Assembly: GCA_947172415.1 (NCBI GenBank)
Contig: OX359193.1
Coordinates: 248,001 to 312,000, forward strand
From: Chondrosia reniformis
Taxonomy: Eukaryota; Porifera; Demospongiae; Chondrillida; Chondrillidae
Reading direction: 5' to 3'
DNA: 64,000 bases
Each line of letters starts with the position of its first letter. The stretch's first letter is position 1. The translations under genes were made by a program, and so were the position numbers. The notes under the pieces were generated by a model. It had not been told where the DNA came from. It was given only the letters and a program-made list of their open reading frames with translations, and searched no databases. Below, one piece after another: positions 6,995 through 54,370 of the stretch.

Positions 6995-9429
6995 ATGCGG
7001 GCAGATAGACCTTCTAAAATGGCAGAACGTCGCCAAAACCTCCTCAACGAAGCTCGACGACTTCGAGGGCACAACAGATCTTCGAGTTGGTCGTTTAACA
7101 GAAGAAGCGGCAGCAGCGGCGATTTGAGCACACTACTGGCCGGTTCTGCCATGACAATGCTGAGAGAAGTACTTCCAGTGTCTCTGACTGAAGAAGAGGT
7201 ACCAGAAGCTTCCTCCTACGAAGGAGCGCACCTGAGAACGCGAGGCGTCACCACCTTAGGCCAAAGCTTGGTCGGGCCGCCACAGAGAATGGTCTCTATG
7301 AGCGATATTGTGGGAGAAGGAGAACCGTTAGCCGCCCATCAGGTTCCCTCTGAGAACGGGGAGGAGGGGAGTAACTTATCAGTGTCTGAACGGTGGGCTG
7401 AAGGCAGGCTCCCGGCCCCCGGTCCACTCCCCAGGGGAGAGGGGGAAGCCCCTGAGAATGAAGGCAATGAGATGGTATCTTGGCTGGAGCAGAATGCTTT
7501 ATTTATTGTCGTCATCTTACTTAAGATTGGATGGAGTTACAAATTCAGTGAGTTATGCAGGCTCAATTGGTTGTAGCTCAGCACTAGTTAGTGAGTGCGG
7601 CGAGCATATATTTATGTAACTAATGTGTGATATTGCTCCTTACAGCTTTGTCGGTGTTGATTGGTTTGGGAGTTGCCTTTCTACATGGAGATACAATCAT
7701 TCGGAAGCAAGTCGCAAATGGAGTAAGTAACCTTGTATCAGCTACACCCATCCATGTCCATCAGAGCCACGCCCATCCATGTCCATCAGAGCCATGTCCA
7801 TCAGAGCCACGCCCATCCATGTCCATCAGAGCCACGCCCATCCATGTCCATCAGAGCCACACCCATCCATGTCCATCAGAGCCACGCCCATCCATGTCCA
7901 TCAGAGCCATGCCCATCCATGTCCATCAGAGCCACGCCCATCCATGTCCATCAGAACCATGTCCATCAGAACCATGTCCATCAGAACCACGCCCATCCAT
8001 GTCCATCAGAACCACCCCCATCCATGTCCATCAGAGAATAGTCCTATTCCTAGTGCAGTTACTGGTACTATTTTAGTCTGCTATTGTGCTGAGTAGTTCT
8101 AATTAATGCACCCCTCTCCCTCTCCTCTGCGATGCAGGATAATCGATCTTCTGTATCTTTGTTATATGTTGTACTGTTTCTGAGTGGAAATGTGTCCTGT
8201 GTATACTACGCAATGCGGGACAGTCACTTACACAACTGGTAGGTCACTGTAGCTGTTACACAAGACTCTCAATAGTAATCCAGTGTCTTGTTTCTGTTCC
8301 TTTCAGCCTAATCTTACAGCCTCCCTTAGTAACTCCTACGCTCATCAACACTATCTGGTGTATATCTGTTACAGGTATGTTCTACCTATTAGACACCTTT
8401 GTATGACTAATTATGCATTATCAGGAGTGTCCTTGTGAAGTAATGTGGTTGTTACTTCCTATGTCAAGTCCACTTGATTCACTATTCAATGTTTACTTCC
8501 CCCTTAATTGTGTAACATTATTAACTTGTGTTTTCTCATTTTTTTAGATTTTATTATTAGATTTGGTGCAATGACCTTGAAGGCCCTTCTGTGTCTCATC
8601 CCTTCTTGTGTCCTCCCCAGCCGCTGTAAGGGAAAGTTTTACATGTTGATTGAGCACGTCAGCCTGTTCTACCGCAGCATCATGGTAGCACCTCTCTGGG
8701 TCCGGTATCTATGTACTATCTACTCGGACGAGGATGGAGCCGATCAGGAGAACAAGACGGTTGCTTGGGTGTTTGCTGTAGTAGTCACCGCTCTCTATCT
8801 CATGGTTAAGGTAGGTCTACATGTGTAGTTTGATATTTAGACAGGCAATGGGAATTTTGTGCTCAAACTACATCTATAATGATGTTGATATGGAAGAGTA
8901 AGTTTATTTTGTGAAGTACTGTGAATGTTGTCAATTCATATTTGAGTTGAATTGAGCTATTGAAGAAGCTTTAAGTTGGTTATAAGTTAACTTTCATTCA
9001 CTTTAGGGAGCCAGTCTCTTTGTGAGATTAAAAGATCTGATAAAAGCACTAATTGCATTTGTTCGACAGAAGGTTAGTCTCCACCCTACAGCTAGTGTGG
9101 CAGCCATTTTATCCCACCTCTCCTGCAGCCCTATGGCGTCAAACCCAATGAAGAGCAGCTAAAGAGTTTGGGAGAACACTGTCCAATTTGTCAAGATGAC
9201 TACACGTCTCCACTCATGCTGCATTGCAAGGTACACAACAATCAGTGCTCTCAGCCTACAGTTGGATATGCTCATCTGTTTTTTTTTGTTGATTCAGCAC
9301 ATTTTCTGTGAGAATTGTGTGCTCATGTGGTTTGACAGAGAGAGAACCTGTCCAATGTGTAGAGCTGTCATTGCAACCACTCCAAAATGGAGGAACGGGG
9401 CAACCTCTTTCATTGTCCAGTTATTTTAA
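6995..9429 (+). CDS. RNFT1/RNFT2-like membrane RING E3 ubiquitin ligase
   Basis: Multi-pass ER membrane E3 ligase of the RNFT (TMEM118) family. Exons: 6995-7547, 7646-7722, 8138-8238, 8307-8374, 8548-8810, 9007-9072, 9129-9230, 9298-9429; 1362 nt, 453 residues, the usual family length. The first ~165 residues are polar and disordered (RRSGSSGD, PAPGPLPRGEGEAPE). Then about five to six membrane segments follow (ALFIVVILLKIGW, LSVLIGLGVAFLHG, VSLLYVVLFLSG, VAWVFAVVVTALYLMV). The C-terminal C3HC4 RING is complete: CPIC, HCKHIFCENC, CPMC, followed by PKWRNGATS as in RNFT proteins. Start ATG chosen because the frame is closed upstream by a TGA at 6893. Intron 2 carries a 25-bp minisatellite. Which of RNFT1 or RNFT2 it represents cannot be told; probably the pre-duplication gene. 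Confidence 0.9.
7740..8038. repeat. 25-bp minisatellite in RNFT intron 2
   Basis: About twelve tandem copies of a unit like CCCATCCATGTCCATCAGAG plus CCACG (25 bp), with some shorter 15-bp variants lacking CCCATCCATG-type sequence. It lies inside the 415-bp intron 7723-8137. Open frames across it are only repeat translations. Confidence 0.95.
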
Positions 9430-9639
9430 CATAATATTATCATGTGATGCGCTGTCATCATATGCTGTATGTTGCTACATTTGAATGGTCCATGTACACT
9501 TTACTGATTTTTAAGGAAAATGCTGAGCAACTTGTATTTGTGTTAAATTTTAATTTGTTTAATTTAATTATCTCACACACCAAAAAATAGAATTTAATTG
9601 CAAAATTAACAACAGATTGTTGTACATGCTAGAAGCATA

Positions 9640-9699
9640 CAGTTATCAACTCTGGTCCTTGGGTGATACACCATTTCGGACACAGAGTATCATAAACTG
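9640..9699 (-). promoter_or_regulatory. SECIS element (form 2) in the SELENOM 3' UTR
   Basis: Read on the minus strand: lower stem CAGTT pairing with AACTG, then the ATGA quartet (9693-9690) opposed by TGAT, a helix CTCTG-T-GTCC with GGACCAGAG (nine pairs with one bulged T), an unpaired AAA thirteen bases after ATGA, and a small extra stem GGTG-TAT-CACC on top. This is the layout of a form 2 SECIS. It begins 35 nt after the SELENOM stop codon, as expected for Sec insertion. I folded it by eye; a SECIS search program would be decisive. Confidence 0.85.
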
Positions 9700-9734
9700 C
9701 TCAAAACTGGTACAACAAACTGCTTTTATGACTT

Positions 9735-10285
9735 TTATAGTTCATCGTTCTCCTGAAAAGTGTCCTCCTTCTTGGAGAAACCTCTCTCCTGAAGGAGCTT
9801 GTCTATTTCATCCTCATCCAACTCAATGACACTAACTCTCTCAACTTCCGTATCATCAGCTGCTAGAAACACCATTTCAGGATCGGCTCCTCCAATGTAT
9901 TTAATGCTGACTTGGCTGTCATCGCTAAATACAAGTTAAGGAGTACGTGTGTGTGGGCGTAACTATTGACCACTGTACGTGTCTCGTACCTAATGACATT
10001 TAGTGCTCATTTAGAGGTAATGATATATAGATTCAAAAGGATACTACAATGGAAGAACTTCATTGATCCATTTCTTCACTTTAGGAAGTCTATTCAAACG
10101 TCATCCACCGCAAGTCTAGGAATGACGAGAATAGCAATTGAAATTGTCACAATATACTCAGATTGGTCCAGTTTACTCACATCAAGTCTAGCTTTGACGA
10201 TTTCTTCACCCTCAACTGGTTTGTAGAACAAACTGACCAAAAGGCTTAGGGCTAATGTGGCGCTCAAAGCCTTTATGATCGCCAT
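9735..10285 (-). CDS. SELENOM: Selenoprotein M with in-frame Sec (TGA) codon
   Basis: Thioredoxin-like ER selenoprotein of the SELENOM/SELENOF family. Exons: 10285-10181, 10115-10045, 9924-9735; 366 nt, 121 residues. A signal peptide (MAIIKALSATLALSLLVSLF) starts the protein. Exon 2 begins TCGGU-RLNRL, where U is the TGA at 10103-10101 (residue 40); human SELENOM has CGGUQLNRL. Further matches are KKWINEVLPLY and YIGGADPE followed by a GF-containing C terminus. It ends in NDEL, an ER-retention type signal. Splicing keeps phase 0 and then 2 across the TGA, and a SECIS lies just downstream. Ordinary gene finders would stop at the TGA or skip the gene. The start codon lies 76 bp from the divergent ABHD11 start. 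Confidence 0.93.
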
Positions 10286-10361: not shown

Positions 10362-11355
10362 ATGAGTGTTAAACTGGCTTACAGTGCGTTTGGTTCATCC
10401 ATTGTTTCAAAGTTACCTCCACTGATAATCTTACACGGAATATTTGGGCAAAAGAGAAACTGGAAAACGATAGCAGAGAGACTAGTAACGCGTTCCCAGA
10501 GACAGGTGCATTCAGAATATCCGTTAATTCATCATTAATCACGTTAAATAGCATTTCCGTATTTCGTGATGTAGGTATATGTCCTGGATGCTCGTAACCA
10601 TGGTGATAGCCCCCATACTGATCGGATGACCTATTTTGACATGAGTAATGATGTAGTCACATTTCTCAGTGAGCATTATTTAGAACAATGTGCTTTACTA
10701 GGTCATAGCATGGGTGGCAAGGTAGCCATGGCAACTGCCCTTCAACATCCTGAAATTGTGGAAAAGCTGATAGTAGTGGACGTGTCTCCTACCAGGGCTC
10801 CAGGGACCAGCCAGCTTCTTGACTATATTACAGTACTCCAGGAACTGGATTTAAGTTTAATTAAATCAAAATCGGAAGCTGATCGAGCAATTTCAAAAGT
10901 GATAGCAGTTAGTCAGTGTACGTGTTCTGTTCACTTGTGTGCTGTGATCAAGTATGCAACATCTTTTAGAACTACAGTGTTAGACAGTTTTTACTTACTA
11001 ATTTGGTCAAATCTGCCAAATCTGGTTCCTATGAGTGGAGAGTTAATCTTTCTGGTATTGCCGGCAATCTACAGCAGGTAAAATCATTTCCAGTGTTTAG
11101 CCGACCATTTGGAAAGCCCAGTCTGTTTATTGGTGGAGCTAACTCCAACTATATCACGTGAGTTATCTTGAAATGCAGTGGTGTCACAGTCTTGTGATCC
11201 ATTGTGTGTGTTTCTATAGGTCCTCAGATGTCAGTGAAATATTGAGGGGTTTCCCCCAGGCAGACATCCAGCATATTCCAGATGCCGGGCACTGGGTTCA
11301 TATAGATCAACCTGAACGTTTTCTACATTCAGTTGCTACCTACTTGAGCTCCTAA
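10362..11355 (+). CDS. ABHD11: ABHD11-like alpha/beta hydrolase
   Basis: Mitochondrial serine hydrolase family; in mammals ABHD11 protects the lipoylated oxoglutarate dehydrogenase complex. Exons: 10362-10505, 10575-10915, 10984-11157, 11220-11355; 795 nt, 264 residues. Visible family blocks: LIILHGIFGQKRNW (oxyanion region), DARNHGDSPH, nucleophile elbow GHSMGGK, VVDVSP, FLLTNLV, YEWRVNL and the catalytic histidine in DAGHWVH. Exon 2 is taken to end at CA|GTGTAC because only that donor joins in frame to QFLLTNLV. The N terminus is short with no clear mitochondrial presequence; an earlier ATG at 10341 would not add an obvious one. Ends 480 bp from the convergent 14-3-3 gene. Confidence 0.9.
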
Positions 11356-52919: not shown

Positions 52920-54370
52920 TATGAATTCATCAAGTATATTACCTTCCTATCATGGAGGTCCAGCACTAAATGTACATTAAAATCTGGCATAATTTGATGA
53001 GAGAGAGAGAGTGCAAATGAAATACTTTAAAAACCTCATTGGCAATGTTCCATACATGCCTGTGAAGGCTGACATCAAGTTTTACCTTCATATTTTTACG
53101 GTTGATAGAGTTACGGCACTAAATGTACACTAAAATTCTGACATACGACGGTAATGCATGGTGAGATATAAGGCAAATTTTAAGTTCCATTAAAATTTCA
53201 AAACCTCATTGGACATACTCTATAGGTGTCTGTGAATGCTGACACAAAGTCACAGCTTCATGTTACAGCCCTCAATGTACATTAAATTCTGGTATACAAA
53301 TTTAATGTATGGTGAGTGATACGTATGTCCAATGAGTTTTTGAAATTTTGATGGAACTTAACCTATCTCTCACTATACATTAACTTTGTATACAAGGATT
53401 TTATGCACATTGAGGGCTGTCACTCTATCAAACAGAAAGATATGAAGCTAATACTTTGTGTCAACATTCACAGACACCTATAGAGTATGTCCAATTAGTT
53501 TTTGAAATTTTGATGGAACTTAAAATTTGCCCTATCTCTCTCGCCATACGTACATTAACTTTTATGCCTCTGAATGCTGTAAGAGAGTATATATAGTAGG
53601 TTTATATCTTTTCTTTTGAAAAAGGTACAGCCCTCAACGTACAATAAATTCTGTGAAAGATTTCTAAAAGAATTTTTGTGATTTTTATTTTTAGTCATAT
53701 TTGCCCTATCTCTCACCATATACAGAGTATATCCTACAATATATAATAATCATTTTTGGAGCTACAGTTGCTTTAAAAACATTCTATCCTGAGTTAGGAA
53801 CTAGACTAAGAGTCAGCCGGTCTAGTTAAAATATCGATCATAGACATTAATATCGTACAGGCGATAAATATCGGACGCACTATATCTAGTTTTCTGTATC
53901 ATGAAAAGTCGCTCTCCTCCCTCCACCAAGACACATACAGGCTTTTATCCATTTGCCACAGTGTTGAGATGTATTGGAAATACTGCGTATGCGTGTACAA
54001 TTGCTTGGAACGATTCACTGGTCTGGAATTAGAATGGAATAAATTGACGATTTCTCGAAAATAATTGGGATCAGAAAAGTCGTTCTCCTCGGCCCATCAA
54101 GACACTTACACGTACGTACGTAGGGTAAATTTTAAGTTCCATCAAAATTTCAAAAACTCATTGAACATACTCTATAGGTGTCTGTGAATACTGACACAAA
54201 GTCACAGCTTCATATCTTTCCATTCGATAGAGTTACAGTCCTCAATGTACATTCTGGTATACAAAGTTAATGTATGGTGAGAGATAGGGTAAATTTTAAG
54301 TTCCGTCAAAATTTCAAAAACTCATTAGACATACTCTATAGGTGTCTGTGAATGCTGACACCTATAGTGT
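52920..54370. repeat. Diverged satellite edge with an inverted segment
   Basis: Blocks related to the downstream 169-bp satellite (CTGTGAATGCTGACA, AATGTACATTA, TATGGTGAGAGATA) recur in degraded form. From about 53325 to 53560 the same blocks appear on the opposite strand (TTGAAATTTTGATGGAACTTA, CTATCTCTCACTATACATTA), then return to the original orientation after about 54120. Between 53760 and 54115 a non-satellite stretch intervenes. No gene is supported. Confidence 0.8.

Follow-up and report, generated by a model that had tools for sequence, protein, structure and literature searches.

Within a 64,000-nucleotide window of the Chondrosia reniformis genome (contig OX359193.1), we identified a minus-strand gene predicted to encode selenoprotein M (SELENOM). 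The gene has three exons, 120 codons followed by TAA, and GT-AG introns in phases 0 and 2. Coding exon 1 (10285-10181; 105 nt) opens with the start ATG and ends ...IVKARLD, with a GT donor after 10181 and intron 1 in phase 0. Coding exon 2 (10115-10048; 68 nt) reads TCGG-TGA-RLNRLPKVKKWINEVLP and is followed by intron 2 in phase 2, while coding exon 3 (9924-9735; 190 nt) carries the TAA stop and a C-terminal NDEL. Only one in-frame TGA is present in the gene (10103-10101, minus strand); it occupies codon 40 and would supply residue 40 of the product, the last position of a CGGU redox motif (TCGGU-RLNRL). Past this TGA the used frame is free of stops, and the two remaining frames contain 4 and 14. 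By sequence inspection and hydropathy, the product has a hydrophobic, signal-peptide-like N-terminus (11-residue windows that start at residues 6-12 average 1.6 to 2.3 on the Kyte-Doolittle scale). The original prediction, made from this DNA without database searches, had described an exon 2 with TCGG-TGA-RLNRL, splice phases that run across the TGA and an NDEL ending, all of which we found as described. Its 121-residue protein was one residue too long: the product has 120 residues including selenocysteine (Sec), and 121 is the number of codons with the TAA.

An alpha/beta hydrolase gene (10572-11081, plus strand) stands head to head with SELENOM, and its nearest Pfam-matched stretch begins ~290 bases from the SELENOM start. 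Just downstream of SELENOM, on the same strand, a RING-finger-like Cys/His pattern was noticed by eye (~9170-9420, minus strand); a Pfam search of 9000-9502 returned no match for this stretch.

The spliced product was then compared with known families and structures. Sep15_SelM (PF08806) was the sole Pfam family at E<=1 (4.1e-17; 62.4 bits against a cut-off of 26). The best solved-structure match was selenoprotein M 2A2P (8e-17; the alignment spans residues 29-111 and has identities in 33 of its 83 columns), in keeping with the SELENOM alignment that had been foreseen, and the Sep15 structure 2A4H came next at 3.7e-4, the closeness to SELENOM or SELENOF being judged here by pairwise scores and not by a tree. 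We take 2A2P to be the mouse protein and 2A4H the Drosophila protein. A ribosomal chain matching at 0.42 was taken as chance. In the 2A2P chain a cysteine stands opposite the TGA position, at a place where the family has Sec, as in the CGGU given in PMC10668967; the same paper describes SELENOM as thioredoxin-like and as carrying an ER signal peptide. By sequence, the protein is a new member of a known family, selenoprotein M, and we infer a thioredoxin-like fold for it from its homology to 2A2P. The sponge protein and mouse selenoprotein M have in common the CGGU motif, the Sep15_SelM domain, an N-terminal hydrophobic segment and a downstream SECIS element. The two differ at the C-terminus, where the sponge protein ends in NDEL, a KDEL-type ER-retrieval signal, whereas mammalian SelM has a tail other than NDEL.

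Downstream of the stop codon, folding and a core scan placed a form-2-like SECIS at 9700-9639 on the minus strand. Helix I (CAGTT/AACTG) is followed by the quartet ATGA (9693-9690)/TGAT, and helix II has 6 + 4 pairs, interrupted by a single bulged U; the apical loop contains an AAA, and an additional apical stem (GGTG-TAT-CACC) completes the hairpin. A layout with such a stem is what we understand by form 2. The outermost predicted pair begins ~35 nt past the stop, from which the ATGA quartet is separated by 41 nt. The first ATTAAA 3' of the SELENOM stop starts at 9598, past the SECIS, and we infer that the element sits within the transcribed 3' UTR. The fold was far more stable than those of shuffled sequences, at -24.7 kcal/mol vs -13.84 on average for the shuffles (z -3.95), and none of the 200 shuffles reached its stability. 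Because the core-scan thresholds were tuned on this very site, the scan is a measure of rarity and no independent detection: at the site's own helix energies it was the sole site in the window over both strands, picked up in two registers of its AA, while 40 sequences of 64 kb simulated with a first-order Markov model (2.56 Mb) gave 0 matches, and at 60% of those energies one further window site appeared (23655, minus strand), with 11 matches in the 40 simulated sequences. Fold and scan together bear out the hairpin that had been predicted, with its ATGA/TGAT quartet, its AAA, its apical stem and its start about 35 nt past the stop.

Other searches for the element gave less. A strict bulge-free SECIS scan missed the site and returned one unrelated weak site at 53653; it was replaced by the duplex-energy scan. 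A loose IUPAC SECIS pattern, applied genome-wide, gave 17,685 matches on one strand and 17,562 on the other vs 19,405 and 19,738 in its reversed control, and being rarer than that control the pattern was useless. With Rfam, no family matched at gathering score over the whole window, and no SECIS family matched at E<=10 over 9540-9760, where three weak snoRNA matches, far below their gathering scores, were taken as chance. The hairpin was thus recovered by our own core scan, which had been tuned on it, and missed by Rfam. Nor was the hairpin among the 7 genome-wide matches to SECIS_1 at E<=1. In a rough alignment of the SELENOM hairpin with these 7 SECIS_1 places, ATGA and two apical-loop A residues were invariant in 8/8 sequences, the 7 places having been found by a model that probably expects ATGA and the apical A.

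A gene of this kind had been expected to imply a working Sec system, and we searched the same genome (117,379,552 bases in 15 contigs) for the Sec machinery. The tRNA-Sec family gave 6 genome matches, two of which were read by ARAGORN. The best (76.8 bits; C12:1386063-1386148) was called tRNA-SeC with anticodon TCA, and the second (47.4 bits vs a cut-off of 47) was called tRNA-Ser(TGA); the family also matched in 14/14 control genomes and exceeded the cut-off in 5 of them. For SepSecS, four matches fell within 1 kb on C11 (best 1.5e-34), with 1 TAG inside two stretches, the stretches being read ignoring introns. eEFSec was represented by a PF21131 match on C7 (5.6e-8), a family found in 0/14 control genomes. 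For SECISBP2, the frame surrounding an L7Ae match at C9:2107824-2107952 matched SECISBP2 in 7ZJW (7ZJW_B; 1.5e-16), its sole PDB match at E<=0.01. This was the one L7Ae match out of 8 in the genome that was compared with PDB sequences; the other 7 are, judged by eye, presumably ribosomal or snoRNP proteins.

For selenophosphate synthetase, C4 carries three SelD-type matches, all short of the cut-off and one with an internal TAG, and the SelD family matched in 14/14 control genomes (over the cut-off in 2). An exon encoding GUGCKVPQEE, its U being TGA, sits upstream of the SelD-type exons and shares their strand, and we take GUGCK to be the Sec motif of SEPHS2. We read these exons together as a putative SEPHS2, the weakest of the five machinery genes. 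The SelD exons are below the cut-off in a family that also matches in the controls, so the reading rests on the collinear exons and the GUGCK motif. By sequence matches, the genome appears to hold tRNA-Sec(UCA), SEPSECS, EEFSEC and SECISBP2 as single exons or domains and not as whole gene models; with the SelD-type exons, these matches agree with the working Sec system of the original prediction.

We also inspected the DNA upstream of the 7 genome-wide SECIS_1 matches, 2 of which (L034 and L035) were above the gathering score. Three of the seven could be assigned. L038 follows a glutathione peroxidase with VASQUGL (PF00255 at 1.5e-18 and 1.1e-10 in two stretches), L039 follows a thioredoxin-reductase-like end with CUG (PF02852, a general domain, at 2e-15), which we assume to be a thioredoxin reductase C-terminus, and L036 follows a selenoprotein N-like SCUGSGRTLRE, a motif that we attribute to SelN. 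At L039 (G000:C8 near 2237594) the C-terminus reads SKSECUG, so that Glu replaces the Gly before Cys-Sec of the usual thioredoxin reductase end, GCUG, and the SECIS match lies downstream. Upstream of the remaining four (L034, L035, L037 and L040) no known selenoprotein was recognised in the ~2.9 kb scanned up to each match. Pfam found a PUB domain plus, below the cut-off, ABHD16_N upstream of L034, TTI1 domains and two sub-cut-off repeat matches upstream of L035, and nothing upstream of L037 and L040; these four may be chance matches or genes not yet resolved.

Genome-wide, PF08806 gave one match, which lies inside SELENOM exon 3, and it gave none in the 14 control genomes (0/14); the SELENOM gene is apparently single-copy. 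A 72-residue Drosophila Sep15 fragment, searched against the genome for SELENOF, gave a single weak match (E 0.128) that contains stops. Neither PF08806 nor the Drosophila fragment revealed a clear SELENOF gene genome-wide, and short exons could hide one: both searches ran exon by exon, and PF08806 caught only one SELENOM exon. The idea that SELENOM, held in the ER by NDEL, is the only Sep15/SelM protein here and so stands in for an absent SELENOF as well is one that we consider improbable.

We asked in addition whether splicing could avoid the TGA. As exon 2 is 68 nt long (68 mod 3 = 2), its skipping breaks the reading frame. Exon 2 contains four AG dinucleotides, which end at offsets 26, 37, 42 and 58, and only the one at 42 is in frame; an acceptor there would drop the first 14 exon-2 residues, including the CGGU motif. 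A functional Sec-less isoform through splicing is unlikely, because skipping shifts the frame and the sole in-frame acceptor deletes the redox motif.

We consider it nearly certain that this is an ordinary demosponge SELENOM gene whose TGA is read as selenocysteine. In the standard code TGA is a stop, and on that account the TGA could truly terminate translation, the gene being either a SELENOM pseudogene in decay or a Cys form that has acquired a nonsense change. Against this, the frame, the splice sites and the family residues are intact on either side of the TGA, the TGA falls exactly at the Sec position with a SECIS downstream, and parts of the Sec machinery are present in the genome; we regard such decay as very improbable, and the gene as functional with little room for doubt. 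Still less probable in our view is that the SECIS-like hairpin folds by chance and that translation proceeds free of Sec, for example with the TGA spliced out. Rfam did miss the hairpin, as a chance fold would lead one to expect, but the scan and fold controls speak against it, as do the frame shift on exon 2 skipping and the loss of the redox motif at the alternative in-frame acceptor.

Equally remote is that the gene is SELENOF (Sep15) and not SELENOM. The two share a Pfam family, and the match to the Sep15 structure 2A4H is detectable (3.7e-4), but it is weaker by far than the match to SelM 2A2P (8e-17). The sponge protein has a four-residue CGGU where the Drosophila Sep15 chain 2A4H has C-T-C, with a one-residue gap. 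Sep15 has an extra Cys-rich N-terminal domain, for which the 120 residues of the sponge product leave no room. As for the motif of selenoprotein F in general, it is of the CXU type in PMC9304195, vs CGGU here.

Under the SELENOM reading, and by analogy with known eukaryotic biology, codon 40 of the spliced SELENOM mRNA would be UGA, SECISBP2 on the 3' UTR SECIS would recruit eEFSec with Sec-tRNA(UCA), and the UGA would then be decoded as selenocysteine. The product would presumably enter the ER via its N-terminal signal peptide and be retained there by NDEL, where it may act as a small oxidoreductase of thioredoxin fold whose centre is Cys-Gly-Gly-Sec.

The genome paper for Chondrosia reniformis (PMC12181767) reports an assembly of 117.37 Mb with 14 chromosomes and a mitochondrion of 17.45 kb, and its main text contains no word beginning with 'selen'. 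A literature search for Chondrosia selenoproteins returned no paper on the subject, its one result being PMC3997428, on sponge element content; PMC9925728 treats peroxide-removing enzymes from sponges to mammals. A 2012 survey tabulates 22 selenoproteins of the sponge Amphimedon queenslandica, one of them a SelM (PMC3473315), so that a SelM gene is ordinary for sponge genomics. As far as our searches show, the Chondrosia SELENOM was unreported before, and neither its family nor the kind of animal is new.

PMC3473315 also states that regular annotation programs mis-annotate or lose selenoproteins owing to the double meaning of TGA, and that the selenoproteome of even early-branching animals resembles the human one in range. 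The SELENOM gene described here matters mostly for annotation. It also extends by one the sponges whose genomes contain parts of the Sec machinery, in agreement with the view of early-branching animals given in PMC3473315.
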